Source: Mytilus galloprovincialis
Lineage: Eukaryota; Mollusca; Bivalvia; Mytilida; Mytilidae
Length of the DNA: 64,000 bases
Assembly (NCBI RefSeq): GCF_965363235.1
Contig: NC_134841.1
Span: 61,463,078-61,527,077 of the forward strand
Direction: 5' to 3'
Of the stretch, positions 2,997 to 50,900 are shown piece after piece. Position 1 is the stretch's first letter; each line of letters opens with the position of its first letter. The position numbers and the translations under genes are program-made. The notes beneath the pieces were generated by a model. The model saw only the letters and a program-made list of their open reading frames with translations, searched no databases and was not told where the DNA came from.

Positions 2997-4070
2997 GTAG
3001 ACACTTCGATAGCGTAAACAATTATACTTGTTATAATAAAATCATGAAACATGTTTTTTTACATATCAGGGATCAAATCATTAACTTGTATAGTTTATTT
3101 TCGAAACTGACTAGTTCCCTGTTTAAACCATACTGTGACAATCATCAATTAGGTAGCCCTCTGAGCAAAATAAGAACAACTGAGTGTATATAAGTTAATG
3201 ACATACCATGTTTCATCTTCACTTTAATTCCATGTGTAGGTTATGTTGATAAATCATTATAATGATTAAAGCAATACACAAAACAAGCTAAATGCGAGAC
3301 TTGATTACCAGAAGGGAACCAGTCGTTTGTAATGATAAAATAAATATTCAACTCCGATAATATATGTAATTTAATTGTGAATTTGGAAGATTATGAATGA
3401 ATTTTGGTATATTTTTTGCCCAATGTGTGAATTAAGGATTATCGTATACACTATTTTGTTTAATATAGTAACTAGAACTAGAGAAGTATTTTCTCTCATT
3501 TTTGATTGTAATCACATTGTATTGAAATATTGGAATGTATCCGACGTTTTTATACGCGAACAAATTAGATTCTTCGTGACCTATTCGGCAAACATGTACA
3601 TCATTTTTTTTTATGTAGGTAAAAAATATATGAGAGTTAATCAGATTAAAATCCTCCGGTATTAAAAATTTAAAACAGGTAAACAAATTTAAACATCATA
3701 ATAATCAAATTGAGTTCTGAAGAAAAAAAATAATAATTAAAAAAAAAATAATAATAATTTTAATAAATAAACAAAAAGTAATAATAATAATTATAATAAA
3801 CAAACAAACAAATATTCGCACAAAGATAGTATGATTGACAACAATACATATCTCTGTAAAGGAAGATTTACATCAGCTTGATTAAATCTTGTCATATATA
3901 TAAATTTCAATATTATAATGACCAATATAAATGCACCCCTGTGAAAGACATGCTTAGTTTTATGTTCTCGAAAATGTTTTCTTTATCATTCTGGAGCAAC
4001 AAAAAAGTTATGTAATGTGTGTATATGTTCCTCTCTATTTGTGTTATTTCTTCTTTTTAATGAGATATCC
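2997..4070. other. AT-rich intergenic stretch, no gene seen
   Basis: No domain-bearing frame is seen. A purely A/T microsatellite-like patch of AATAATAA and ATAAACAAACAAAC lies at 3720-3815. Confidence 0.6.
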
Positions 4071-7426: not shown

Positions 7427-10400
7427 CTGGAATAAACAAAAAATAGATAATAAATGTTAGTTAAAAAATGTATTAAGTCTACTTCAACAATTTTCTAACT
7501 CCCTTTTGACCGGCGGAATTAACAGACACACGAACACACACACACAGAGGTTCTGGTTTCGTGAGTATTGTTACAAATTACGCCACGGTGTTTTTACCAA
7601 TGCTGCTGATTAAGAGCACCCTCTCTAAAACAACACCAGGAAGTGCGAAGGGGACCTATTTAATTGTCTAGTAAACAATATTTATAAAGCCTACTGTATA
7701 AAGTTAGCTGCCGGTATGTTGTGATTTCAAACGTGAAACTGTCAACAAATGACAAAATGGGGAGGATATGAACTTCCAAATATCGCATTCTGTTACGAAG
7801 CTTATTTCTCTATACTAAATATAGAAACGCAATACATCATATACAAGTCCCATTTTGGTCTCTTTTCAAAAAACAATTACAAAATACAGTAATTTCTTTA
7901 AAGGCACTCTATTTGGCTATACCATAGTTTAACAGTTTTGCTATACTTCTTGACTTGTTTTTTTTTCAGCTCCGAAACTTGCGAAAAGTCACAAAAGCAA
8001 AACTCACAAGAACAATCATATTTATGATCACAACGGGACAAATACAAAGGATATTTGTTAAACATTTAACATCGACTTGTAACTTATCATTTTTGTGTTG
8101 TATCTTTTCTTTTTGAAAAATCTTTCACGCCATTGTAAGATCGCCACAATTCGTTGAACCAACAATCAAATAATTAAATAAAACATATTCCCTTATATGC
8201 AACCTTTAAAACAGTGCATTAAATAAAATAAAAAATATACTTACGGACATTTTCTGGAAAGACTTGAAATGGTGATGGAAATGCGCTAGTTCCAGTATTC
8301 ATAGGATTGACATTTCCATACAGTTGAGCAGCAGAAACTAGTGGTATACCGCCTATTAAAATAGGTATATTAACTCTCAAATTGATAGCTGGACCCGCGG
8401 GATCACAAACCAACTAAAAAGAAAAACAAATAACAGAATGGTAAAAATTATTACATACTAGAAAAAGGAAGACTGTTATCTTTTGGAATAAAACGTTAAT
8501 ATTAATGATTTTTTTTTTAATTTATTAAAAATGGTCAGAATATAAGTTTTTCATTTTTTGGGGGGGGGGGGGGGGGGGTCGGGGAAATTCTATTAAACCT
8601 GAACATATATATTGCCCATAGTTGGATGATTTTCATGTTGCTTTTTTTACTGACTGCTCTTTTTTTCCGACGTAGTCGGTATTAGTTTCGGTTTGTGCCC
8701 TTTGAACTTAAAGACGCTTAACTATGGCAACAGAATACGCATGCTCGAAAATCCTTTCTGTGATTGGACAAAATGCTGTCATGGTGGGTGATTTGGTTGT
8801 GTTTGAAAAAACGTCTCGTTAATTATATCGTGATGGAAAGCAAATGAAAAACTATAAATATTTGAACTAGATCTTACAAAGATTTATATTTTTATCAAAA
8901 TAATTGTTTCTCCAATAGCTCTTTGCATCCGTGACAGCTGTTTATTCGGGACAATCAGGTAATTTTTTTTAATGTAAACTTTGTTGTACGATCGTACATG
9001 ACTTTTAGAACGCACCTACGCATTTGAGATTTCCGCGGGGTTTTGGTGAATGTAAACAGAAAGATACGAGGACCGAGAATACTGATTAAAACACAAACAG
9101 AAAAAACGTTATTTAAATGGTATCTTTGTGCCTCTGGAGGTTATCGAAATGATAGTTTTAAACATATACTCAAATTTAAATACGTCGGATATCTTTTTTA
9201 AAGATAGTTCTTGTTAAGGTTTGTTTCACTTGTAAATAAAAGCGCTTTCTAACAAGACCATTATTCAGTTTGGTGTCATGCCAATAAAAATTAAGAAATA
9301 TATCCAAAACAATTTTAAAGGATTCAAGAGTCTGAATGTACTTACAAATATATTATATTGCATGTTATTTTGCTGTCCTGATAAGCATTAGTTGCTTTCG
9401 GTATAAATAAAATAATTGAATTGAATGTAAGTGTGCATATTAAATAAACTAAATATACGTACAACCCACAAATACATAATGTCTATTATATTACAGCCAT
9501 GAAGGCCAGTGGATGGCAACGGTGGTACAGTTATCTGTTCCCCTCTCCAGTAATCCGAGTCACCTTTGCCTACTGTTCTTGCTGTAGTTTTTTGCACAAC
9601 TGTGTTCACAGTTCTAGTTTTTCTTGCAGTTATATATCTGATAGACTAAATAAAAAAAAATAATTAAGATGAATATGTGTCGCAACAATATTTTGTTTAT
9701 ATAAAGTTACAGATTAGAACTAAAAATAAACCAACCAAAATGAATGATAGCATTTTCTGCTTAATAGTATGTGTATCTCTAAATTATGGCTACTCATTAA
9801 GAACACGGATAAAATCTTTTGAAATTTTTATGTAAACGAAAATACATGCATGCAAGAGAGGAAACTTAAAGGTACATTGAGGCCATATTTATGGCTCCTA
9901 GAATTTTTAAAATTTTATAATAAAGGTTATGATAAATCTCTGTTTTAAACAACATCATTCGGACATTATACTATTAGTAGACCTGTTAATTTTAGATATA
10001 AATCAGTAATAAGCAATTATCGTATATACATGCACATAATTTGAACATTGAAACTGGAAGGTTTTTAAATATAAACAGAAACGATAGAATATGTAATGTG
10101 TGCAACTGTGATTCTGTTGAAGATGAATATCATTTTATTTTGGAATGTATTGGATACAAAGATATTCGTATGAAGTTATATCAAACCTTATTATTGGAGA
10201 AATCCATCAGTATTTAAACTTATACAATTGTTATCTGTTCGTAATATAAAAGAACTTAATAATTTTGGGAAGTATTTATGTATTGCCGAAAAAATTAGTA
10301 ATCGTTGAATGTGTATATCATACTTTAATTAAGGCTAATTAATATCATGCTCCTACATTTGTTTTTAATTGTATTAATTGCATATTAATGAATTACCTTA

Positions 10401-20052: not shown

Positions 20053-20440
20053 CATCTTCGCTATCCAAGGGTTACGATCCACGTCCCTCCTCTCTACCCT
20101 ACTTCGCTAGCCAAGGGTTACGATCCACTTTCCTCCTCTCCATCCTTGTTCGCTAGCCAAGGGTTACGATCCACTGCCCTCCTCTCCACCCTTCTTCGCT
20201 AGCCAAGGGTTACGATCCACTTCCCTCCTCTCCACCCTTCTTCGCTAGCCAAGGGTTACGATCAACTCCCCCCCCCCCCTCCTTCACCCTTCTTCGCTAG
20301 CCAAGGTTTACGATCAACTTCCCCCCTCTGCACCCTTCTTCGCTAGCCAAGGGTTACGATCCACTTCCCCCCTCTTCACCCTTCTTCGCTAGCAAAGGGT
20401 TACCGTACGATGCACCTCCCTCCTCTCCACAAGGGAAGTG
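20053..20440. repeat. Minisatellite of about 47-bp units derived from a MITE terminus
   Basis: About eight units of CTTCGCTAGCCAAGGGTTAC-GATCCACTTCCCTCCTCTCC-ACCCTT. The unit matches the first ~47 bp of the terminal inverted repeat of the element at 54148-54690 (CATCTTCGCT.GCCAAGGGTT, ACGATC.ACTCCCGCTCTCTT, CACCCTT). One unit contains a C-run at 20268-20279. The first unit even keeps the terminal CAT. Confidence 0.85.
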
Positions 20441-26400: not shown

Positions 26401-29400
26401 AGTTGTGAATATCTTGTTACAAGGGAAAATACGGGGTTTTGGTTATTTTGTTGTTGTCTTAATAACATCACGTATTTTGAAGGAAGACAACATTTGCAAT
26501 TGCACACATACAATGTATCATAGTAAACAATCGACATTGTTTTGGCACCTACCTAGACTCTTGATAGTAAGCCCCCTTTTAAGGTCTGCGATGACTGTAA
26601 TGGCGAGTACAAACTTATCAATTGGTAGTTTCTAATTCGATTGTTGTCATCAGTACTTTACCAATAGAACTTAAATTGTGAAATAAAATAGCATTCAAGT
26701 TTCACTAGACAAAATACCTATTGTTTTGTGCAGAGTAAATAAATTGGTTTTTTGATAAATAAACTCATCGTAGATACCAGGATTGAAATTTTGTATTAAT
26801 GCCAGACGCGCGTTTCGTCTACAAAAGACTCATCAGTGACACTCGAATACAAAAATGTTAAAATGGCAAAATAAAGTGCGAAGTTGATGAGCTTGAGGAC
26901 CAAAAATTTCAAAAAGTAAGTCATGACTAAACATGCGTCCACTTTAATTTTGTTACAGAGGATCTGAATTTTTGCGAATGACGTGTGGACCTGCTAGACC
27001 AAACAAAATAATAAAGTCCCCCATAATGCAATGTAGTTTTAATCTAATGAAAATCAAAACCAATTTCAGAGGCTGTGAAGGCATTGTGGACTTTATCCTT
27101 TGACAAACAGAACCAATCCGAAATGATAGAAAACAAAGATAATAATTGTGTCATTGATATATTTATTCGACACAGTAAATCTGAAGATTCTGAGGTTAGA
27201 AGAACTTGTACCAAAGCTCTTTGGACGATGAAGGATGGTCTGAGAACTTCTCAATACTATCAGCAAATAGGTGAGTTTAATTGGATATTTCAATTATATT
27301 TTTTTCGACTTCAGTTTTACTATAACTATTGGTAAGGCAGCAACCATTTGATTTTCTGGGGGGGGCTATGGTTTTTTTTTCTGGACAAACTTTTTTTTTC
27401 GCCTGCGGCGAAAAACAATCTATCTTTTTCGCGACAAGTCGAAAACAATTTTTTTCTTTCAATTTTAGCATTACATATAGTGGCAGCTGAGGGTGAAACA
27501 AACAATTTTTTTTTCTCAGAATCAAAAACAAATTATTTTTTTCTCCAAAAACTGGAAACAAACTTTTTTTTCCAAAAAAAACCATAGCCCCCCCAGAAAA
27601 TCAAATGGTTGCTGCCTAATGGTCTTCTTTCTTTATTTGTATTAATCATGTTAAAAACCTAGTTTGAATTATAGTAATACTGTGTCAGCTAGTTCAAAAC
27701 ATTTGTTGTTACTAAGGTGGCTAGGAGGCTTCATGTTGTTTTTTAATAATCAAATGAGTAAATAGGTGAGTTTATTTGAATATTTCCATTATATTTTTTT
27801 CGACTTCAGTTTCATTATTACTATCGGTAATGGTCTTCTTTCTTTATTTGTATTAATCATGTTAAAAACCTAGTTTGAACTATAGTAATACTGTGTCAGC
27901 TAGTTCAAAACATTTGTGGTCATGAAGGTGGTTAGAAAGCCTGTCTGAAAGACTTCATGTTTTTTTCAATAATCATATAATTTTCAAAGAAAACAGTGCT
28001 TCTCCTTGCTGAATGAGTAAATATTAAAAGTTGTTTAAATTAACCTTCTGCGTTTGCAAACTTTTTCAGTTGAAAATTTAAAATTACCTGACGCAAGTAA
28101 GACGAGCAAAGCTACAAATGACAGTCATGTCATGATAAGTTACAACTGGGGCCATCAGAAGATCATGAAACATATATGTAGTTTCCTTAGAAACAGTGGA
28201 ATGAAAGTATGGATGGATATTGATGATATGCACGGATCTACACTCCAAGCAATGGCGACTGCTGTAGAGAAAGCCGACATTGTCCTCGTCTGTTTTTCAC
28301 AAAAGTATAAAAACAGCGATAACTGTAGAGCAGGTATTTTTTTAGTATTTAGTTTACAGTTGCAACACTTGTAGACCATGCATTGTTAGACAAGGATTTG
28401 ATTTAATTGCAGGGTAGTATTTTGTCATAGCAATGCTAAAATAGTTTTAGACTATATCATTACAACAGAAGTGATCGCCAGGTACATTTAGTACCACAGG
28501 TATCATACGTCACGATACCTGTATATTTTATACTTTTTGAACCTGTCTTCCTACTAGGCTTAGATTTTAGGGATTTAGTAGGACCACTATTTTTTTCAAT
28601 ATGAGAAAGACTTGAAAATATATCTATAGAGAATATCATATGGTTTATTCAATATCACACCTGTATCCATCCGAGACACCAGTATAATATCAGAGCTCTG
28701 CTCGAGTGATTATATCGATTGATGGTTGATACGGTGTGTGATATTGAAAAAAATATATTATATACACTTTATTATATACATGTTCATGAGGCACAACGTA
28801 TCTCTCTTAAGTATATTTACGACACATGACGTAATACACATCAGTGGTTTGATAAAGCTGTTGTAACCGTGACTGATATTTAATTACAAATGTACGTGAC
28901 GTCGGGTTTGATAAAGCCTTTGCAACCGATATCGATATCATCACGGATGGCTGATACATCACGATTGTCATCAATTGTATTGCACTTACAATTTACCTGT
29001 ATTTGCTACTAAATATACAACAAACAATAAGAATATCCTTTAGCAACGTCATTTAAAAGGTTTATACTTTATGTATTTTTTTGTTACTTATTACCGTATA
29101 CTAGACAGTGATTTTCAACTTGTATGACGTTACAGGTTAGACACGTTCTTGTTTTCGAGGTTAGTACGTGAGATATCTGCCCTTATCTATGACTGCGGGA
29201 TATAAGTAGCTATATACTCTAGCTTAATCCACCAAAACATATCGCATCCCTGTTAAACCGGAATTGGTCTTTTGAAACACAAAAAAAACACCAAATAAAC
29301 GCTTTAAATCCTTTTACAGTTATCGTCGTGTCATATGTTTTCGTATGTTATATATTTTCGTATCATCCATATTTCATCTGTTTCGATTTCACACGCGTAT

Positions 29401-32400
29401 ATTGTGGTGGTTTTTTTTGGTTTCTATATTTGGAACAACAACAACACTACATCTTGACATCTTTAAAACATATTTTTAAAAAGACGCTAGAACAAATTTG
29501 ATAAAAACTGACCAGATTGGCCATTTTTATTTAATGCCAAAAATATGCCTCGCTAGAGTAGTTGTTGAGCAATATTCTTAGGGGTTACATGAAGTATAGC
29601 TATATCGTCTGCCTGAACGACATCGGATCTTCAAGACATGTCACTGTCATGTGGTGTTTTGGTCATTTTTATTACAAACAAGCGCGTTCAAATTATCATG
29701 GTTCTTATATAAAATGGGTGTCCAAAATCCATTTATTCAATATTTTATCGACAATTCTTTTTGTATATCCTTGATACACAAAGATGAAAACAGTCTTATT
29801 TTTTTACATTTAAACCCTATTTTTAAAAACTGCATTTTGTTTTCAAAAAAAATAATGTCCTTTGTAGAAACTAGGTGTCAATCTGAAATAAATAAAAATG
29901 TAACAATTTCAGCACATGAAACACCAACCTAAAACTATTTACTATTTATTTCTAGTACTGAAAAGTATTGAATAACCTTTATTATGATTCAAACGATCAC
30001 CAGAACCACGACTTTAGAAAATTTTAATTTCCGGATTATATAGTAATTTCCTGTCCGTGAACTGATCCGATTTTTAATTCATATGAAAACATATGACGCC
30101 GGTTTTTTTTTACATACGAAAATCGCGAATTAATCGGAAACGGTTAAAAATCGTAGAAAGCCTTGACAAAAAAAACTAGATACCTAAAATCATTCGATAG
30201 GACATGCTTTTAGAATTTGAGTAAATACCTGAATAAAAACTCAACAGTGAAAACCGTAAGCAGTGAAAATTGTTATTAGCACGAAAACACATCACATGAT
30301 GATCCACAATTATTAATTATGTAGAATTATTGTATTTTTTTTTTATTAGAGGCGGAATACGCATTTCAGTTGAAGAAAAAGATAATACCATTGAAGATGG
30401 AGGGTGGTTATAAACCTGATGGGTGGTTGGGATTTATCATTGGTGCTAAATTATTTTACGACTTTAGTGGGAAATATGCTTTCGAAAACAAGATGAAAGA
30501 GTTAATCAAAGATGTACAGACTTCATTACAAGAAATGACGGACACGGCAACCATATTGCCTAATACGGACATAAAAGTTCAGGTATTACGTAAATTATAT
30601 ATTCAAGTACTTTTAAATACTGGTAACAATAACAATATACTATATTTGGAAACACTCAGCCACATATTTACATGTACAACAAGAGACAAAATATATAGAT
30701 ATGCTTATGGTTACTAAGTATACAACTGTTAAGGTACTTTTTATTTACACGCATTAAGTTTTTATCATTACTATATACTGATAAGTGGTGTACTAGTAAT
30801 TGTATGTTTACATTATCTTTTAAAGAAGACAAATCAAAACATTTTCTGTTTAAAACCACAATTTCCACTTACATACCGATTAGAAACAATTCTTCTTTTA
30901 ATAAAGTTCGAATACGTTACCATTTCCAGTTGAAATGTTATAAATTTCACTTTTCTGTTTAAGGCATTGGAAAACAATCATGTTGTATCGTTCTCGAGTA
31001 CAACTTCTGCGAAGTCAACAAAAATGACAGTTGAGATTGACAAAATAAAAAAGTGGACCCCTCAACGTATTGCTGGTTGGCTTGATAAAAACAGTTTACC
31101 AAGGTATACTAGTAGGTTTTAGAATACGAATAGTTTACCAAGGCATACACGTAGGTTTAAAATAAGAACAGATTACCAAGGTATACTAGTAGGTTGAGGG
31201 TAAGAACAGTTTATAATAGTAGGTTTAGAATTTAAACAGTTTACCAATGCATACTCATAGGTTTAAAATAAGAACAGATTACCAAGGTATACTAGTAGGT
31301 TGGGGGTAAGAACAGTTTACCAAGGCATAACAGTAGGATAAGGATGAGACCAGTTTATCAAGGCATACACGGAGGTTTAAAATAAGAACAGATTACTAGT
31401 AGGTTGAGGGTAAGAATAGTTTACCAATGTATACTAGTAGGATTAGAATAAGAACACTTAACCAAGGAAGCTAGTAGGTTAATGATAAGAACAGTTTACC
31501 AAAGTATATTAGTAGGTTTAGAATGAAAACAGAGGTTTTACAAAGGTATACTAGTAGGTTGAGGGTAAGAACCGTTTACCAAGATATGTTAGTAGGTTAA
31601 GGATAAGAACAGTTTACCAAGGTGTAGTAGTAGGTTTTCTTTATTTTCAAGTCCAATGTAATGAATTCAACCAGAAATCACTATATTTATATCTAACTGA
31701 CCGATCTACGTATTTATTTCTATGCTAATTAATAGCAAAATGGAATTCGTACCAACATCGTGCGCAACGTCAGTATTAACAGAAAAGTTGGATTTGAACT
31801 GAGGCTTATTATATCTTTTCTATGCACAGCTAATCATGAATTACATTAAATACTTAAATATAGGGTATTAGAAACATTACCATTTCTAAATTAATAACAA
31901 TTGTAGAAATTATTTAAGAAAAGTTTAAAGAAGTATTAAAGATGTTAAAATACATTATTTTTACAGAAATTTGTTGGGAAGATTAACTGGTATAGAGATT
32001 GCGTTTCTTTGTGTCTTAGTAAATGAGGTATGATAATGTAATAAGTGTTGGGCAACAACTCACAAGTTCATATACATATAAAAGATAACAGGAATCCAAA
32101 AATCATATTGTCAGTGTAACACACAACATCAACTACTAACAACTGACTCCTCCTCCGAAAAAAAAACAAAAAACAAAAAACAAAAAAAAACAAAAAAAAA
32201 ACGCGCGTCAAAACAAAGTGTAACATCAAGTTACAAAAAAAAAGTAAAACCACAAAAATACTGAACTTAGAGGAAAATCAATTCGGAAAGTCCATAATCA
32301 CATGGCAAAATTAAATAACAAAAAATATCAAAAACGAATGGACAAGAACTGTCATAACACCATAGGAGGTCGAGGAGGTCTACAAGTTTTTATTTCCCAC

Positions 32401-35949: not shown

Positions 35950-38900
35950 CTGAAACAGAGTAAACAATTATATTGAATTTCCGTCTCCGGATAAAATTTT
36001 AAAGCCCTTAATGGAGTTCAATCTACCATTTTTACTACAGTCTACCAAAGAGTAAAATCACAGGACAAAATATGAATAGCCTTTTTACCGATACGTTTAT
36101 TTTCAAACCTAATTTCAGTGATATTTCAGGATAACCCCAAAACGTTGAAAAGTATCTAATTCCCATAAATTATATTTATGTAACGGTTTTCACATGTTAA
36201 TATAATAGAAAAGTCGTCTCATCTGTAAGTTAACGACTGCGTCCTATTTTAAATATTTCATTTGAGTGATGAATTGCATTATGGGTGATGTTTGAATAGC
36301 AAGAGACGTTTATCATATTGCCGCATTGTCAATACTTGTTGAATTGCATTATGGGTGATGTTTAAATAGCAAGAGATGTTTATCCATGTTGTTGCATTGT
36401 CATAACTTGTTGAATTGTATTATGGCTGATGTTTGAAAAGCAAGAGACGTTTATCCTATTTTCCGCATTGCCATAACTTGTTGAATTACATTATGGGTGA
36501 TGTTTGAATAGCAAGAGACGTTTATCCTATTGCCGCATTGTCATAACTTGTTGAATTGCATTATGGGTGATGTTTGAATAGCAAGAGACGTTTATCCTAT
36601 TTGTCTCATTGACACAACTTGTTGAATTACATTATGGGTGATGTTTGAATAGCAAGAGACGTTTATTCTATTGCCGCATTGTCATAACTTGTTGAATTGC
36701 ATTATTGGTGATGTTTGAATAGCAAGAGACGTTTATCATATTGCCGCATTGTCAATACTTGTTGAATTGCATTATGGGTGATGTTTAAATAGCAAGAGAT
36801 GTTTATCCATGTTGTTGCATTGTCATAACTTGTTGAATTGTATTATGGCTGATGTTTGAAAAGCAAGAGACGTTTATCTTATTTTCCGCATTGCCATAAC
36901 TTGTTGAATTACATTATGGGTGATGTTTGAATAGCAAGAGACGTTTATCCTATTGCCGCATTGTCATAAATTGTTGAATTGCATTATGGGTGATGTTTGA
37001 ATAGCAAGAGATGTTTATCCTATTTGTCTCATTGACACAACTTGTTGAATTACATTATGGGTGATGTTTGAATAGCAAGAGACGTTTATTCTATTGCCGC
37101 ATTGTCATAACTTGTTGAATTGCATTATTGGTGATGTTTGAATAGCAAGAGACGTTTATCATATTGCCGCATTGTCATAACTTGTTGAATTGCATTATGG
37201 GTGATGTTTGAATAGCAAGAGACGTTTATCCTATTATGCATTGTCATAACTTGTTGAATTGCATCATGGGTGATGTTTGAAAAGCAAGAGACGTTTATCC
37301 TATTTGTCGCATTGCCGTAACTTGTTGAATTGCATTATGGGTGATGTTTGAATAACAAGAGACGTTTATCCTATTTGCCTCATTGCCACAACTTGTTGAA
37401 TTACATTATGGGTGATATTTGAATAGCAAGAGACGTTTATTCTATTGCCGCATTGTCATAACTTGTTGAATTGCATTATGGGTGATGTTTGAATAGCAAG
37501 AGACGATTATCATATTGCCCCATTGTCAATAATTGTTGAATTGCATTATGGGTGATGTTTGAGTAGCAAGAGACGTTTATCCTATTATGCATTGTCATAA
37601 CTTGTTGAATTGCATCATGGGTGATGTTTGAAAAGCAAGAGACGTTTATCCTATTATGCATTGTCATAACTTGTTGAATTGCATTATGGGTGATGTTTGA
37701 ATAGCAAGAGACGTTTATCCTATTATGCATTGTCATTACTTGTTGAATTGCATCATGGGTGATTTTTGAAAAGCAAGAGACGTTTATCATATTGCCGCAT
37801 TGTCATAACTTGTTGAATTGCATCATGGGTGATGTTTGAATAGCAAGAGACGTTTATCCTATTATGCATTGTCATAACTTGTTGAATTGCATCATGGGTG
37901 ATCTATATTGCTTCATGAGATTTGAATATTGGCCAGCTACTGTTGCACCTTATTTGTCATAATATATTGATAACCAGGATATATTAAGTGAAAAAGAAAA
38001 TAATAAACTTGCTTGCAATTTAACGGAGGTCTACATTGTACATACTGAAGAATTGAAAAACCGATAATAAATTCTCGAAAATTTATGTACTTGCACTTGC
38101 GAAAATATATACAAATATTTCAAATAATGTAAAGATAAAACATAAGACAGATCCCTGCACTACACATAATACATATACTACATAAAATGTAAAACAAAAA
38201 CACCGTGCAATATTTTTGGAGTATAATCCATTCAATAATGTATGGATTATGAACTTCTAATTAAAAACAAAATTGAATGTGTTTAAAATACTTGAATGTC
38301 TAAGTTTTACTATAAAAAAAGAATACGGACACATTTTTGTAAAAGAAAATCATTCATATTATTAAAATCTTTATAAATGCAAATTTTTTAATTGATGGCT
38401 TCCCCTACATTAGTGAGCCGATATTTTCCCGTATGCAATAACATAAACAACAAGATCTCTCGTCAGAACTTCAGTCACCACACAGTAACAAAGTGTGAGA
38501 AGAAACCCGTGATGAATGAATGTAAATAAACATGTACGGGAAGGGAAATAGTAATATCTGGTTCTCCAAGAATTGACAGCTCTAAGGAAAAGTTTTATAA
38601 TAACTTCCCAGTTAAAATAATAAAAATATTATATGGCTTTTAAATTTACTCATGTTCATTTGATCACGTTCTCTGTGTTGATTGTTTACCCATGTTACGA
38701 TCCAACTAACTTTGGCAACAAACTCGGGAGTTAATTATCTCAACAATCTTAGAATGCCATTTGATTTTTGATAATACGTTATAGATTCGTAATAAATGTA
38801 AAACAACCCGTACATACATGACTCAGTTTCGTATGTATGAATGCATTGATATAATAATTATATATCACATTATAATTATAAGAAACTCGTTTTATATGGC

Positions 38901-41900
38901 TTTAAACTTTTTGTAAAAAATGAATGTCAAAATTCTATTTATTGTTTACGAGTCTTTCAGAAGTTACTTACTATCAGCACCGCTAGGACAAGTCGCTAAA
39001 ACATATGGATCACAACTGGCAAATGACGTTGTCTCATCGCTGCCATCCTCGCAGTCTTCGTCGCAGTCACATTTAAATGCCTCATCAATACAAGAAATGG
39101 ACCCATGCTGACATGAAAACCATCCCGTTGGACATGTCTACCAAGAAAACCAATACATTATTTAATAGACATTAAGGAGAAATAACTTTGTCATCTAAAA
39201 CTTATGTTTCAATTTAAATCAGTTCAGACCAGTTTGATAAATTTTGATAAACCATATATTCATTTCAAAAATGAACTCGACATTTTCTACCAAATCATTT
39301 GATTTTTTCAGTTTAGTCCAGGATGGTGCAAAATCTGTATTATTCAAATTTGCTGATTTTCATAGCTGAATACGGAAAAATTTGAAATGAGATAAAAAAT
39401 AATGCAACATATACATATTTTATTTAATCATCAGTTTTTATCAATGTCTGTAGTTTAGTGTGTTTTGTTTTCAACTTCCTTTTCACTCTTTTTTACACAA
39501 ATGAACAATTCATAACATAAGAACAATAACATCAATAAATGTATTTAGAAATACTACAACTTAACCACTGAAACCTACTTGTACGTATGCCCCATATCCT
39601 GACGTTGGACAAGCTTGTATGTTGCAGTTGCCATATTCGCTCGATGAACCACTACAAGGAAGTCCGCCATTATCTGGCCTTGGATCATCACATACTCTCA
39701 TTCTTGATTGACGACCACCACCACAAGAAACTGAACACACACCCCAAGACTGCCATTGTCCCCATGCCCCATCAACTGTTTGGAAAAATTTGCAATGTGT
39801 GAATACAATTATCTTATGGAAGAAAATACAGAAATAGATAAATATAAATAATTTAAGTGGGGTATTTTTCAGGTATTCCGTGGTTCGACAAAACCTATAC
39901 TGAGCGCCAATGAAACACAACACTTGGTTTTTCAAAATTAAAATTTATATTAGAAATGATAATCCTTCAAAATAAATTGTTCTTGAAAATTAACAATTTT
40001 AACAATAGAACGATATCAAACAAAAATGTTTCATTGTCATCTTTCGGGCACAATAGGTAAACGAAACATCCAATAAGGAATCATCAACTCACATACCTAA
40101 CAAAAATTGTTACAACCCAGAGGTGCAGCGCAATCTCGACAGCGCCGTAGAATTGATCATCCCGGACGTTTAATGTGATCCCGAGGAATGTCATTCCACT
40201 TGTCCCGCAAAGCAAACTCAAGCTGACTTTATGACATTGGTGGTGGTTTTCATCGTCTAAACCATGTCAAATCTGGTGCAAAATTTGCTCGATCGGACCA
40301 AAATCCGACGAAAAGCCTGACTGTTGGCCAAGGCGAGTCCAAATGTCTATGTAGCCACCACTGACGGTTTTTGGTACATAATGAATGATTTTTGGTCTAC
40401 AGAATTCAATGTTTTCGCCAGACGGCCGTTTAGATGTCACTAAGGAAAGACTGTGGTGCTCTTTTCGCAAATGGTGCTTTACTGAAATTGCTCCAAAGGT
40501 TCTACCGGGACTACTATTGAACTCTCGTGACCTTTGGACAACAATCAGAGTCGATATCGGATATGTTAAAGACCAAATGTATCGGTCTTGCTGGGCGTTT
40601 CTTGCTTTTTGTACCCCGGGATGTGGCTTATCATTAAATGATTCATTTTGGTTGAATTTGTGGATGTTTTTAGTTATTGTAGAGGCTACAACTTCAGTCT
40701 TCTCGTAATTGTATGCTGTGAAAGGCTTCATTGGATCATGCCAAATTTATTGACAATTAAGCTGGGAAAATTCACGATATTAGCCAAGCTTTAAATGACA
40801 AAATCGTAAAAATGGTGCGTATGTTGAAAAGCGGTGAACTCGGTTTATGTTCGTTCAAAATAACCCTTGCTTCGCATTTGTTCCAAAAATCACTCAACAG
40901 TAAAGTTGTCGACAATTGTCTTAAAAGTGATTTTCAACCAACTATACAAAGTTCTAATATAAATAAAATAAAAATTATAAGATTTTTTTAAAAATAAAAA
41001 TGTTGCGTTTTCATTGGCACTCAGTATATATTTTAGCAAAGTTTTAAAATTTTAACACAAACAACCCCTTCCCCCTTATATTCCATATCAGTAACCAAAT
41101 CAGGCTGGCGTCCATAAATGTTCGAGGGAATAACTACAACAAAACAAAAAACTCTTGGGCCAAAAGCTTCCTTGTAAGTGCAGGAGCCACCGATCAACAG
41201 AATCATTTAAGGAATAGTAAACTCTAAGATATATCCTCCTTTTACTGATGCTGCTGGAATGATGTTCAATAGAAACGAATGATTTACATTAGAAAACCGC
41301 CATTTATTTGCTGCCATTGGATAATCAAAAATTCTTATTTTTTAATTTCATTTAGTATCACAATTGACAGAACACATAACCCAAAACGCTATTGTCCAAT
41401 TGCACGATGCTTTTATTTTGTTTAAAATAATTATATCAGGATGTGTGAAAAAAACTTATCAAAGATACCAGGTCTACGATTTTGTACGCCAGATGCACTT
41501 TTTGTCTTCCCCTGACTAATCAGTGACACTCTCAAGATCAACACTGTTACAAGGCTAAGTAAGATACCAAGTTTAGTAGCATTCAGGACCCAAATTTCTG
41601 AAATATTTTTACTAAATCTAGTTACGGTAATCTATTTTTGAGATAGGAAATTCTTAGTATTTACAACCATAAGTGCCGACGCCTGGTTTGGTTGTTCACA
41701 ATTCTCTATGGACGACAAGTTTAAAGATAGTCATTTTTAAGTATGATATTGCCATTGACTCCATATGTTACTATCCAATAGTTTCCGCTCGTTTAAAAAC
41801 AAAATAAGTTTTAGACAAAGCGATTTTTAAACTTTTATATAAAAAAGAAGATGAGGTATGACTGCCAATGAGACAACCGTCCACAAGAGACCAAAATGAC

Positions 41901-44900
41901 ACAAAAAATTAACAACTATAGGTCACCGTACGGCCTTCAGCTTAGTTTACATATTTTAGTTTGTGATTATGTCAGTTCATCTATCAACTATTAGTGATGG
42001 GTCAATGATATAAGGTATGCAGATGTATATGAATTGACCCATCGTATTGCGGTGGAAATTATTTCCCCCCTCACCCCTTTTCAGTCGCGGTTCATTGATT
42101 CTGAATGTTTGCCATTATTTATATGTTACAGTTTGTGATTAAATTTTTAGACAAAAGACTAATGTTAAATCAATGATACTAGTATTTGTTATGCAGTTGT
42201 GTTTGCATTTGAATGTTTCTTTTCCATGGAGATTATATGGCTCTACCCTCTCATCATGGATAATTGACTATGAAACTTTGACATAGTTTTACAAGTGAAA
42301 GTTTGGGTTTGGCTTAGTTTAAAGGGAATTCACCACTAAAGATAGGTCGATGGTATGTGGTATGCAGTCTTATTAGCATGTCATTTAATATTCCTATGGA
42401 GGTTATTTGGCCCTGCACCTTTAGTCATAGCTCATTGACTTTGAATGCTTTGCCTAGTTTATATGTTTAATTATTGCCATTTTAATTTCAATATTTGCAT
42501 TATTCCATCAAAATTGAAAAACACGCAGTTTGTTCATTTTTGTTTTATTCTTTTAATAATAAATTGAAAAGATCTTTTGTGGCATAACAATATTGATTAA
42601 TATCAGAACGTTAAATCAGATTTAAAATCTCCCCAACTTAAAAATCTTTGAAAAGAAATCAGTCAGCTATACATGAATACTTTTTCACTTATCAAACTTG
42701 GTTGATACTTACCTATGCAACTTTGAGTATTACACGATTGTGTTTCCTGACCATTGCCAGCGCAAGGTGCTCCATTATATTGTGCAGTAGGATTTGTACA
42801 CGACCTAGTGCGATCTTGTGTTCCGCCATCACATGTTACGGTGCAACTCCCCCATGATAACCAATTTGACCAATCGCCATCAACTATATATCATAAAGGA
42901 CAATACATAAATTGTTGTACACAGTAACATAACAGAATATAGATTAAAAAAGTAAGCTAGGAAAGATTCATTGACTCATGATCAATACAAGTATTTACAA
43001 TTATAATTTTTTATCTTAAAAAATTCAAACTTTAACACCAAAAGTTGACAAATCGACACGAGATTGTGATAAATTTTCAAAGGAATTTGTGAAATATTTT
43101 GATACATAGACGAAAATAACAACTTTTAAAACAAATGATGATTACCTTAGCCGTATTTGGCACAACTTTTTAGAATTTTTGGTCCTCAATGCTCCTCAAC
43201 TTTGTACTTATTTGGCTTTATAACAATTTTGATCTGAGCGTCACTGATGAGGCTTATGTAGACGAAATGCGCGTATGGCGTATTAAATTATAATCCTAGT
43301 ACCTTTAATAAATAGTAACAATGATATAGGAATCAATAATTATCCAAAAATAGATGACGTTATGTTTTCGCACAGCAATATAATTGTAACTCAGTCTAGT
43401 TCAGTATAAAATGCTTTCGTAAGAACAATTTTCATTATCAAATGGTTTTGTGTAAAGTTTTAATTACAACAGTTTGAATTTTTGCCTGGAATCTTAATTA
43501 ATATTTTACTTACTTGGACATGGTGTTAGAGTACATGTTTTTGTTGTTGCAGCTGACCCAACACAATTGGCACCACTATAAGCTGGTGCAGGATTAGCAC
43601 AAGTTCTGGATCTATCCTGTGTACCACTTGCACATGTTACAGAGCAACTTCCCCATGCACCCCATACAGCCCACATACCATCAACTTTGAGATTGTATAA
43701 AATATTTAGTTTTATCTTTCATAAATTCTTGGAAAATTGAAATTCAACGCACTCAAAATTAAAGGATCTCATGTTATAAACGTTCTTGAAATATACCCTT
43801 ATAAAAGACAGGTATGTACAAAAAAGTGAAGTGCATATTTCAACAATATCAATTCATTTACTATTTACAACAAATAAACAAATTTCGAGCACGTTCTACT
43901 AGGCTTTTGCTAAAGCATAAAAAAACGAGATTATGAAAAATAAAATATGAACAATAATATTAAGCATGATATAGCTATTTAAAAAATAAATCATACAAAT
44001 CTAAATAATGTACGTGTTGTCATATGTTTCGTCACTTTAATAATAACTTGAGAATTGTATACTAGTATATGTTTCATAACTGCATATTCCAAAATTGTTA
44101 TAAGACATACCTGGACAAGGGACTTGAGTACATGTCTGTATATCTGTACCCGAACCACTACAGCTTTGTCCAGAGTGTTGTGGTGCTGGACTATCACATT
44201 GACGTTGCCTGGTTTCGGTGCCACTTGCACAGGATACGGAGCAAGTTCCCCAAGAAGCCCAACTTCCCCAGTTACCATCAACTAAGCAATGTGTGTAAGA
44301 AGAAATAATATTTTAACATATGTAATAAGCAACATTATGGATTTTCAATTTTTGTTGACAGTAACACTTAAGCTTCAAGACAGTGTTAGGCAATAACATT
44401 GATTGCGATGATGTTTTAAGGTTCAATTTCATAAATCAAGTAGTTTGAATTGGAATATTATTTGATGATGTTTGTGTTCTCTAGAAATTTTTAATATTCT
44501 TGAGTTTCAATGTTTACCACGAAGAGAACCAGAAAAGGGCAGTTGTTAAAGAGTAAAAGGTCGGGTGATTTTGCTTTGTAACAAGGCGTCCGAAGCGTTT
44601 TTTTTTTTTTTTTATATATATTTACCGATGAACATATGTATCCGATTTAGAGTTAGAGACTAAAATATTTACAGTTTATATTTTATTGCAGGATAAGGAA
44701 TATTTTGTTTTGTTTACTTAAAGTTTATATACAGTTTTAAACAACTGTTAATTTTACTCGATTTAACCTGTAAAATGAGTTCCACACTTCTTATCCATCC
44801 TTCCACAAAAGGCTGATTCCAACATTTAAAGAAATTCAGCAAAATGTTAGAGTGTTCAGTTAACATGTTCACTTCTGAAAATATTAATGCATTTTTTTAA

Positions 44901-47900
44901 ATTTTATTTACTACACTAACTTGGACATGCGACTTTAGTACATGTCTGTGTTTCTGTACCGGAACCGCTACAGTCCTGACCATTGTGTTTTACAGCTGGA
45001 CTGTCACATTGACGTTGTCTGGTTTCGGTTCCGCTTGCACACGTGACGGAACAAGTTCCCCAGGATGCCCAACTTCCCCAATTACCATCGACTAAGAAGT
45101 GACAGGAAGAATAATAATGTTTTAACATAAGCAACATTGTGGATTTCTACTTTCTAGGGATAGTTGGTACCAATTACGGTTCAAGACAGTGTTAATAATA
45201 TAGATTACGATGATATTTTTAAGGTTCAATTTCATTAATCAAATAATTCATAAAATAATTCATCAACTATCGCATTTTGAATATTGTTAACATGTTTATG
45301 TTTTTTTTGTGTTCTTGTGTATTAAAGTTTGTCGTGTAAAAGGTAGAGCTCTATGGTTCTTTTGTAGTTTACTTCTTTATAAGGGAACAACAGAACACAG
45401 TTTGAAAGAATGCAGTTCTAAATATCAATCGATTTGGTGTCGTGTTTGCAGTTCAAACCCAATCGTCTTTGATAAAAATAAAAATGAATAATTTGAAATT
45501 ATTATGGTCCGAATCCCTTTCCTGGATTTACCGATGTATAATCCAGGAAAGGACAATCTATAGATTGGAGATAAAACACAAAAGGCATATGAATTATAAC
45601 TTATTGCAGATTAAAGATTTCTTTCTTTATGTTTAGTTAGAATATAGTTTTAAAACAACTGCAATTTTTACTCGACTTAACCCGACCAATTATTCAATTT
45701 CATTACTAGAATGATCATCTATACTTACTTGGACATGCGACTTTAGTACATGTCTGTGTGTCTGTACCCGAACCGCTGCAGTCCTGTCCGTTGTGTTGTG
45801 CTGCTGGACTGTCACACAAACGTTGTCTGGTTTCGGTTCCACTTGCACACGTTACTGAACAGCTACCCCAGGACGCCCAACTTCCCCAATTACCATCAAC
45901 TGAAATGTCAATTAAAATGGAAATAGTAACGTTTAGTATAACATGTATAAAATATACTCTTATGTTATGTATTTATTACTCCGTCATTTAACACAAGAGA
46001 AACTGTATCGGTCATCTAAGTCTCTGTGCATCATTGATAGTAACACTCTCCGATGGTGTTATTTGGTTATTACTGCTACATATTCTATCTATCTTCTTTA
46101 TATTTTGTTCAGACCCACAAAAAAGAGTAAAGAATCGTCTTTTAAAGACAATCACTCCTGCAAAAATTCGACTATAATATCGACAACATTTGATTTTTTT
46201 AAGGTCTTCACTTTTATTTTTTAAAGTGTCTATTTATCTTTTATAAGGCTTAAACCACAAAACTGGTAAACATGGTCATTACAGAGCAACCATTCCTGTA
46301 GGTAGTCGATTGACAATTACGGCAATGTGGACACATTTGATCTTATCTGGCTAATCATTTTTGCTATTAAAGTGTCAGTCCTATATTTTATAATTTTCAA
46401 GATAAAACACTCAAAAGGGTAAACATCATCATTGAAGAGCAATATTTCCAGTAAGGAGTCGTCGGCTGATTTCAGCAAGCTGATTTATTTGTAGATCTAG
46501 TTTTGCTTTATTATCATAATCTTCAAGATTCTAGGAATACAATTGGCTAAAAATTGCCATAAAAGGGCAATTTTTTCAATAAGAAGTCTACGAGCGATTT
46601 GGTTATGTTGGCTTATTTGTAGATCTTGTGTTGCTTATCTTATTCTTGCTTTTTAAAGTGTCTATCTATATATTATAGTTTTCAAGATAAGAGACAAAAA
46701 CACAATAAATGCATAAAAAAGTCAATAAAGAGCAATAACTCTATAACGAGTGATCGGACGATTTTAGCGATCTAACGTATTTGTAGAGTTTTTCTTGCTG
46801 AATATTTCTTTTTATTAAGTTAACTTTTTAACTATCTATTAATTATTTTAGTTCTTTAAGTCATATGAAACTTCAAATTAAATAAAAATGATGCATATGT
46901 TTTTTTATAACTAAATGGCTAGCTTTTATTATAAAACTATGTGCATATACCTTTTTCTGAATGAAATTTTTTTAATAAGTCCAAATTTAGAAGAAATTGA
47001 TGTTTTTAAATTATTGAATTTCAAGGCAATAATTCGCCAACATATTTTCCGTATGCAGTTACCTCAGCGTGGCCTTTCTCGTAAAAATCAGGTGATCGCA
47101 ATACGCAAATAGAAAGGGAAAACCCAAATTGGCAGAGAGAGTCAACGAACGTAAACATCGCTCCAATATCGAAATAAACTATATCTTATTGTACATGTCA
47201 TACACGTGCTTACCTCAATATACATGCTTAATTCTTTGTTGATTGTTTACAAACGTGACAAGCTTTAAAACACGACAATTAATTTGCTGCCATATTTTCA
47301 CATCAACACTGACCGAGTGAAATATTTTCATGACGATTATACGTTCTAAATTATAATCCTGGTACCTTTGATAACTATTATGGATGCGTAAAAAATGATA
47401 AAGCCGTGCAGAGAAGACTAAGTTTATTATATGTGCATGCATTGGTTCAATGATTGGATGAACACTCGTTTCAGTTGACTTTGGTTTTGGTAATATTTTG
47501 CATACAGATTTAGGCTCGTTCGACTATAACTGAATATCGAAAAAATAATGAATTAACATATTTAATTTTTTTGGATAAATGATTGCTTGAATTCTTTTAA
47601 GCCAAAATCATAAAAATTATGCAAAATGTTAACAAAATATGTGACATAGCCTATTTACTGTAACTTGACCTTAAGATATAAGGCAAAAACGCAAAAAAAA
47701 AAAAGATAAACAAAAAATCGTAATTAAAGGGCAAAATCTCCAGACGATTTCGGCAATATAAACTAATTGGTAGATATTTTCCTGTTGAGCATTTGCACAT
47801 GGAAAATTTGTCTTTAAATCTTATAATTTTGAAGATACAAAGCAAAAATTTGAAAAATAAATAAAAAATCTTTATTAAAAGGCAATAACCCCCGCTGTTA

Positions 47901-50900
47901 GAAGTCGTCTGACAGTTTTGACGTAAAGGTAGAAAGGTAAATACTTCATACCATGAGGTATTATCAAATTGATGTCGATTTTTTCCAATATTTCTAAATG
48001 ATATATCTAAGAACGTACCTGGACATGTGACTTGTGTACATGTCTTTGAGTCTGTGCTTGAACCACTGCATACTTGCCCACTGTGTTGTGGTGTAGGGTT
48101 ATCACACTGACGTTGCCTCGTTTGAGTTCCGCTTGCACATGTTACAGAACAAGTTCCCCATGATACCCAATTGCTCCACTGACCGTCAACTACAGAAACA
48201 AATTAAACGTCTGTGACGGAATAGTTTTGTGTATTTAAAATTTCAACACAGTATTTAGAGGAGTTTTGAATAAAAAAAAAATAAATAGTTTCTTCATGCT
48301 GCAATGTAGTAACATAACGTCTCTAAAATATCTTAATGAAAATACATAAAAAAAGTAATCGATTGAAACCTTTAACCTTAACTTAACAGCGTTTAATAAT
48401 ATCGTGTCCTAGTTTTATTTATGCGACTGAAAGACGACTTTCTTGAAAATGTGAAATGAACTTAAGACATAGACATACTTACTAGGACAGGCAATAAGAG
48501 TACAAGTTTTAGTTTCTGAACCGGCGCCACTGCAGTCCAATCCATTGTTAGCTGGTGCTGGGTTGGAACATGCTCTACTTCTACTTGAGATTCCACTTCC
48601 GCAACTCAGAGAGCAAGAGGTCCATGTCGTCCAATCTGCCCAGTTACCATTTACTACAATATAAGATAACATCTAAAGACTGTTATATGCTCATTGCTGC
48701 TCAAAACTAAGGTTTCCAATCGTATGTTAAAGACAAAACCTCTCAATGTCTTCTTTCTAGATGACTGAAAAACCGAACCTCATTTGAAGGATATATACAA
48801 TTTATATTTATATGATATAATCATTTTAAATTCAATGGAAAATCAGAAGCGAAGAAGGTCATATGTCAGTTTAGAAATTTCTTATCTACTCTTACTCCTT
48901 GGTATTTTATGTCTTATTTAATTGCTATTTATCAAGGTTTAAAAACAAGGTTGTTCCCTTGTTTGTTAGTTTTTTAACACAAACGAAAAAAATGTGTCCT
49001 ACCACCAATACATATTAACTAATCTAATCCTTAACAGACATACACTATTTTCGGTGTGTTTACTGTAAATGCAAAATGTTATTACTATATACTTCTTTAA
49101 AAATTTGGATATTTTGTTAAAGCCAATAATAATGGAAACTATATAAAGTACAGCACAGATCAAACAAATCAACGAGAACCGTGGTGTAGTGGTTAGTGCA
49201 TCGGACTGCTAACACAAAGGTTCCTGATTCGATCCCCTCTCCGGGGGGGGGGGGGGGAATTTCAGGGACTGAATTATCTGCTCTCCTTTGAAACCATTTG
49301 CGAGTATGGTCTTGAGGAAACGATGATAGTCCATCGGAAGGGGATGATAAATGACTGACCCGTGTTAAGAGAGAGAGAGTCATATCTCTTGAACATAAAA
49401 GACATCCTTGTAGATATCGAAAAAGATCATGCTAATGTCGCTACAAGGCAGCACTCGCACCCGCAAAGTGGAAAGGGGTTAATATAAGTTGCAATAACTT
49501 GTTTCCAATCCACTATAACGAAACATGTTAAAACTAAACTAACAAATCAAAATGTAAACGAAGCCTTACCTGCACATGATGCCATGGTACACGTTTTTGA
49601 GCTAGTACCTGAACCACTACATTGGTTTCCATTGTGTGCAGGAGTAGGATTATTACAGGATCTTGTCTTTGTTTGATCGCCAGTTCCACAAGTTACTGAA
49701 CATGAGCCATAAGAACCCCATGATCCCCAGTTTCCATCAACTGAGGAAAAAACAACATTAACGTGAAAAAAATATCTGTATCTAACTCTTTCACATAGGT
49801 ACTTAGATATCACTCACAATTGAAAATAGTCTAAATAAACTCAGAGAGATAACTTAAAACGCAATGAATAACTTTCAAGATCATGCATTTTCTAGTTTTG
49901 TTTATTTAAACGTCTTGGTTACAGTATGCCACCAAGGTTAAAATGAGAAAAAGCCTATAATTTCTCATGAATAAGTTTCAAAAAGATTCTTTTAGCAATT
50001 ATCAAAATAATATTCAAAAAAGAGTAAGATAAATATCTTGCACTAAAGGTTGGCACTAACTTCGATGAACTTTTATGAAAGTTTAAAATGAATTCCTCGC
50101 AACAGATGAGGTGCCAATTCAAATTACAAAATCTCAGAAACATTTGTAGATTTGACTTTGATAGAAGCACAATTATTTATACTCTTTCTTTATCTATTTC
50201 AAATGCACAATGAAAGCCATCAAACATATAAAAAATGGTAAAATTACAATACAAGAAAATGTAAGAGTGCATCTAAAATGTATCAATAAGAAAGCAAGCA
50301 TTTAGAAACGTCCGTTATTGCTACATATAGACAACAATATGTGACGAGGATGAACCCACCATTCTAACATTATGTAACATCTTCCGAAAAAGACATAAGA
50401 AACCTCCATTGAACAAACGTCCTTATGAAAGATTGTTAAGACATTGTAGTTTTTCGTCTCACTTATCAATGGCAACATTTGTTTCGAGATTTATTTAACA
50501 TATGCACACATTTTATCTTAAGTGTGTTTAAAAATGCCATTTGTTTGAAATGCAATGACAACATTTGTTAAACAACAAGTTTATGTGAATTGTCCCCCTT
50601 TATTGGATCATTATCTGAAATAAATGTAAGACACTTTTAATTAAAGTTGTAATTTTCAATCAATTGTTAATCATTGAATGAACAACTTGTCAACCTTTAC
50701 AATAAGAAGTATTGAAATATCTATATATTGTTTAATTATTCTAACATGACGTCCTTCAAACGCTTTGAGTACACACCCGTGGTAAAATATGAATATATTG
50801 CCAGTGCTGTTCCGATTGTACTCCCACGTCATATGCTTTTTATGAATGAGATACCCGACGTCATAGAACAATGACGTTAGAATGTAAGCATTTTACGGGA

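Follow-up and report, generated by a model that had tools for sequence, protein, structure and literature searches.

In the window analysed here, a stretch of 64,000 bases of genomic DNA, a minisatellite runs across the end of a coding exon and carries copies of that exon's 5' splice site into the following intron. How did such an array come to straddle an exon-intron junction, and what would a spliceosome choosing one of the copies produce? We consider it likely that the array is a nearly neutral minisatellite that grew out of the junction, with splicing mainly at the first donor and with the downstream donors acting as decoys.

The ARM-TIR gene around the array

The array lies in a putative ARM-TIR gene, the exon borders of which were set from homology and splice signals (Table 1). 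A TIR domain is present (TIR_2, E = 9.2e-24, 84.7 bits with a cut-off of 28, Pfam scan of the joined TIR exon pieces), and Arm/HEAT-type Pfam matches in the two exon pieces scanned had E values of 0.0096 to 0.28, all below the curated cut-offs. The C-terminal tail is built from exons 7, 8 and 9, the last of which is 76% identical over 34 residues to the closest paralog (L036). Neither a Pfam match up to E = 10 nor more than six weak matches to PDB profiles (E = 0.12 to 1.9, best 0.12) were found for the tail, so that "SAM-like" is used here as a description; some of the matched PDB profiles are, we assume, those of SAM-bearing proteins. Intron 7 measures 863 bases, 62% of which is array. The joined TIR exons (28039-30717) contain the string NCRAEAEYAF; in TIR NADases, a glutamate in this neighbourhood is catalytic.

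Table 1. Positions, within the window, of the gene features, the array and the donor-like sites
Feature	Position	Strand	Basis or remark
ARM-TIR gene with SAM-like tail		+	Exon numbers follow the sequence-only reading
Two open frames with TIR exons of the ARM-TIR gene	28039..30717	+	Pfam TIR_2 on joined pieces
Exon 7	30964..31103	+	Acceptor tttaag/GCATTG; end conserved in four paralogs; last residues ...WLDKNSLPR
15-unit minisatellite of about 38 bp across the exon-intron junction	31085..31636	+	TRF, unit tiling, one genomic locus found
GT of the presumed true 5' splice site (CCAAG/GTATAC)	31104..31105	+	Four paralogs share the codon and phase (2) of the intron; exons 7-8-9 form one open frame
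In-frame TAG reached if exon 7 continues past its donor	31120..31122	+	Inside unit 1
Units 2-10, three-unit higher-order repeat (2/5/8, 3/6/9, 4/7/10)	31124..31447	+	Lag-3 identity
Decoy GT, unit 3	31181..31182	+	9-mer same as donor
New donor-like site AGG/GTAAGA, border of units 3 and 4	31200..31201	+	Scores above true donor
Decoy GT, unit 6	31287..31288	+	9-mer same as donor
Further new donor-like sites of the 31200 kind	31306 (GGG/GTAAGA), 31410, 31565	+
Decoy GT, unit 13	31546..31547	+	9-mer same as donor
Exon 8	31967..32027	+	Acceptor AG 31965-31966; donor GAG/GTATGA; agrees with paralogs
Exon 9, end of SAM-like tail and stop codon	32646..32753	+	Match to paralog L036, open frame

Structure of the minisatellite

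TRF reported a tandem repeat at 31085-31637 (period 38, 14.9 copies, 69% matches), and decomposition by hand tiled 31085-31636 exactly with 15 units. The first 19 bases of unit 1 (31085-31103) are the end of exon 7, and the same unit contains the donor GT at 31104. Allowing up to three mismatches, a 22-base core of the unit matched seven times in the window, each time inside the array, and not once in 100 dinucleotide shuffles. A 551-base query from the array, run against the genome (1.385 Gb, 331 contigs), gave one place, such counts being lower bounds and very common words being skipped; a 20-base core with up to two mismatches occurred at 19 places, nine of them in the array and 10 outside it, whereas the reversed core, as a control, occurred at 37. 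The array is regarded as real and well defined. Predicted RNA folding of 31050-31240 was equalled by 26 of 200 shuffles (z = -1.19), and accordingly no structure is claimed for this segment.

The units are not all equally related. Among units 2-10, identity at lag 3 was 0.855 (6 pairs), against 0.731 at lag 1 and 0.723 at lag 2, and 26 of 5,000 shuffles of the order of units 2-15 attained the lag-3 value. Duplication probably proceeded in three-unit blocks.

These results confirm the observation made in the sequence-only reading. The amplification of a real exon-intron junction together with its donor agrees with TRF, the unit tiling and the paralog exon ends; the unit of about 38 bp, said to begin in the last codons of exon 7 and to contain CCAAG/GTATAC, does hold the donor, cut between 31103 and 31104, within unit 1; the estimate of about 14 further units in the intron matches the tiling, which places exactly 14 downstream of unit 1; and the exon 8 start that it gave (31967) coincides with that seen in the paralogs.

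Origin from the exon-intron junction

A search for paralogs returned 15 matches, three in the ARM-TIR gene itself and 12 in 11 other loci, seven of which were covered by TRF. Four of the 11 loci (L036-L039) have a clear exon 7/8 junction, and the comparison is confined to these: exon 7 is strongly diverged in L040, L042 and L045, the junctions of which were left out, and the two exons could not both be placed in L041, L043, L044 and L046. The four paralogs have in common an exon end of the form WLDxNxLP(R/K) (WLDKNQLPR, WLDNNSLPK, WLDKNNLPK and WLDINNLPK), a phase-2 intron interrupting the same codon and a corresponding exon 8, and TRF showed the junction to be free of tandem arrays in each of them. 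For L038, TRF gave four rows, which all lie in the 7.5-kb intron, at about 165 bases or more from the donor, and consist of 2 to 2.7 copies of units that differ from those of the array. Since the exon end and the phase-2 intron are common to four paralogs devoid of an array there, growth proceeded from the junction into the intron.

The units themselves point in the same direction. Unit 1 matches the consensus of the 14 intronic units at 95%, as well as the best of the copies does (range 76-95%). The fifth base of the unit, which is a third codon position, is A in unit 1 and in three of the four paralogs (T in the fourth) and G in 12 of the 14 intronic units, so that the exon form looks ancestral. 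As judged from these sequence comparisons, the end of exon 7 seeded the array and the junction is older than the array.

Donor copies and new donor-like sites

The donor 9-mer, AAGGTATAC, is intact in units 3, 6 and 13, that is, in three of the 14 downstream units, and the longer context CCAAGGTATAC in units 3 and 6, in keeping with the proposal that at least two units share an identical donor context. Mutations at or near the GT had likewise been noted: a GT is kept at the homologous place in six of the 14 downstream units (3, 6, 10, 12, 13 and 15), whereas the dinucleotide reads GC in units 2, 5, 7 and 8, is otherwise altered in units 11 and 14 and is deleted in units 4 and 9.

Donor strength was assessed with a human frequency matrix and a human U1 end. 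By these human-derived values the true donor at 31104 is weak, with a matrix score of 4.87 and a U1 pairing of -5.7 kcal/mol. Its matrix score falls short of that of its counterpart in each of the four paralogs (5.79-6.85), and its pairing equals that in one of them, is better than in two and worse than in one (-5.7, -4.3, -4.2 and -6.4). Among 104 GT sites in 28400-30320, 4.8% reach the matrix score of the true donor and 6.7% its pairing. None of the top-scoring decoys is a donor copy: they are new GGGTAAGA sites at four unit borders (31200, 31306, 31410 and 31565), overlooked in the sequence-only reading, which beat the true donor on both measures (matrix 7.9-8.7, pairing -8.9 to -9.2) and may have arisen by one or a few mutations that the repeat then multiplied. 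Other sites in the array exceed the true donor on one measure, for example 31151 (matrix) and 31622 (U1 pairing). With a weak donor and four downstream sites higher on both measures, use of the first donor is not certain.

Variation in the donor columns is similar to that in the rest of the unit (0.152 vs 0.132 for other columns, the units not being independent). In this alignment, the donor is equalled or exceeded in variability by 14 of 38 nine-column windows and its GT by 8 of 38 two-column windows, with neither special conservation nor special loss of donor or GT. Selection on the decoys, in either direction, is thus not apparent, with the same caution as to the dependence of the units.

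Reading-frame consequences of downstream donors

Of 50 GT sites between 31104 and 31650 that were tested, two keep the frame open through exons 8 and 9, namely 31104 and 31116, and the latter, a very weak site within unit 1 (matrix score -1.28), would add four residues. Because the TAG at 31120 precedes unit 2, any donor in units 2-15 is predicted to give the same truncated end, ...SLPRYTSRF followed by the stop, as was seen for 12 GT sites and three AAGGC sites. In the eight decoy sites listed, the stop lies 58-499 nt upstream of the new junction, an arrangement from which nonsense-mediated decay is expected. Decoy use in units 2-15 would therefore yield a premature stop, and length-variable SAM-like isoforms from these units are excluded by the predicted reading frame. 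Possible outcomes that remain are less of the full-length product, or a truncated one. The interpretation offered by the sequence-only reading is thus divided: the amplified junction with its donor copies stands, and the isoforms differing in the length of the SAM-like segment fall, given that 48 of the 50 GT sites fail to read through.

Most likely explanation and its alternatives

Replication slippage or unequal exchange would have duplicated a stretch of 38-39 bp spanning the end of exon 7 and the start of intron 7. Later rounds, some of them involving blocks of three units, would have extended the array into the intron, and the copies diverged there. We infer that the first donor does most of the splicing, being nearest to the exon body; it is also the sole donor to keep the frame, apart from the very weak site in unit 1. 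Downstream decoys, if used, would include the TAG and give a premature-stop RNA that is probably decayed or, alternatively, a protein without most of the SAM-like tail. Tandem repeats, short runs included, occupy 5,783 of the 64,000 bases of the window (28 hand-merged TRF stretches), and as they are common both here and in some paralog loci, some arrays in such a genome should cross a junction. The array is probably near neutral; speaking against simple neutral decay, columns of the intronic units that stem from the exon show less variation than those that stem from the intron (0.104 vs 0.169), a difference to be read with caution because the units are not independent.

Could the decoys instead be put to use, with a regulated share of transcripts diverted to them and array length setting the output of full-length ARM-TIR protein? 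Such a role would suit the four downstream sites that outscore the true donor, the failure of every donor in units 2-15 to read through and the position of the stop ahead of the new junction, and intron 7 polymorphisms are reported to modulate factor VII levels. The donor columns, however, are not kept above the rest and the donor GT has been lost in eight of the 14 downstream units, and we regard regulated decoy use as unlikely. That the array, varying in length, would form a heritable rheostat on an immune-type ARM-TIR gene, with poison donors of which four outscore the real one, seems quite unlikely; if it were true, more or stronger downstream donors would mean less full-length protein or more of the form truncated in its SAM-like tail. 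In-frame alternative donors generating SAM-like segments of different length, as in IFI6, would draw on the several near-identical donors and on the in-frame site at 31116, but the TAG stands before all donors of units 2-15 and 31116 itself scores below zero, leaving such isoforms extremely improbable.

Two further readings concern the array as such. Its UAG/UAGG repeats, which we take to be an hnRNP A1-like motif, might let it recruit an RNA-binding protein to silence the decoys or to regulate the exon. TAGG does occur 14 times in the 533 intronic bases of the array (31104-31636), against a single occurrence in the remaining 330 intron bases, and no five-column block is better conserved than GTAGG; yet permuted columns match the conservation of GTAGG in 664 of 3,000 cases (390 of 3,000 for GTAGGTT), and any motif held by a repeat gets multiplied, so that we judge a binding platform very unlikely. 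The exon-intron border now falls inside a repeat unit, as it would if the array had been in the intron first and its unit 1 had later been recruited as the exon end. This order of events is disfavoured by the position of the intron in the paralogs, four of which have the exon end as conserved coding sequence without a junction array, and it appears exceedingly improbable. A nearly neutral array grown from the junction remains our preferred explanation.

Relation to known systems

Turri et al. are said to have described, in 1995, a human minisatellite that provides multiple splice donor sites in one transcript, which citing papers link to IFI6 (G1P3, 6-16). The IFI6 minisatellite has a short unit and gives in-frame isoforms. 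Here, unlike in IFI6, unit length is not divisible by three and unit 1 contains a stop codon, and the frame is not kept across successive units (TAG at 31120, with every GT of units 2-15 failing to read through). In a model of intron gain, a segment bearing AGGT is reportedly duplicated in tandem. The array resembles this model in the tandem duplication of a segment with AG/GT, but the phase-2 intron is ancestral, being at the same position in four paralogs, and no new intron was seen; intron gain is disfavoured for this locus. Intron gain by tandem genomic duplication has been reported (PMC4974935).

In intron 7 of human factor VII (F7), as set out in a review, the donor lies in the first of several 37-bp repeats, the most upstream donor alone is normally used, with oriented scanning, and in a mutant the transcripts from downstream cryptic donors encode no functional protein (PMC6627357). 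This is a precedent for the use of the first donor alone. The two loci are alike in that the first repeat unit carries the authentic donor at the exon-intron junction, with near-identical donors downstream (three of 14 9-mers and six of 14 GT dinucleotides here), and they differ in that the present case concerns an unrelated gene, a 38-bp unit, diverged units and higher-scoring sites at the unit borders, and comes from sequence. The array may work like the junction-spanning donor minisatellite of F7, by analogy and not by homology. Its layout, compared in this way, is the F7/IFI6-like arrangement, a known kind, in an unrelated gene.

The array thus adds a case to the layout reported for human F7 and IFI6, in a non-vertebrate-looking genome and with paralogs that indicate the direction of growth. 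It also offers a natural test of spliceosome choice among many donors, with a weak first site set against higher-scoring ones downstream, in which use of a decoy would show as premature-stop transcripts. In Caenorhabditis elegans, the minisatellite CeRep25B is over-represented near alternative splicing (PMC4039745). CeRep25B and the present array are both intronic minisatellites linked to splicing choice; in the worm this link consists in regulatory motifs over-represented near alternative exons and, unlike here, is not known to involve repeated donors. Among the literature matches listed, there was no donor-bearing minisatellite of a mollusc or another invertebrate, which is not a claim of absence in print.

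Other tandem repeats and features

Several other arrays are found in the window and in the paralog loci. Upstream of the ARM-TIR exons lies a 46-bp array (20055-20403, 7.5 copies at 88%), with overlapping open frames on the plus strand. Between the ARM-TIR gene and the next gene, a 70-bp minisatellite (141 bp as a double unit) extends over 36270-37902 with 23 copies at 89%; minus-strand frames are open over several of its units, and 141 is a multiple of three. A series of open frames on the minus strand follows at 39561-48202, resembling thrombospondin type 1 repeats.

Among the seven of 11 paralog loci covered by TRF, some contain long arrays and others little. In L042, a 30-bp array (3021-3539, 17.3 copies at 98%) lies 3' of the stop codon of the paralog; it is more uniform than the array in intron 7 and probably younger. 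Beside the paralogs in L040 and L045 lie, respectively, a 45-bp array of 15.0 copies (7812-8486) and a pair of arrays with units of 156 bp (4.7 copies) and 21 bp (11.9 copies) at 316-1360.
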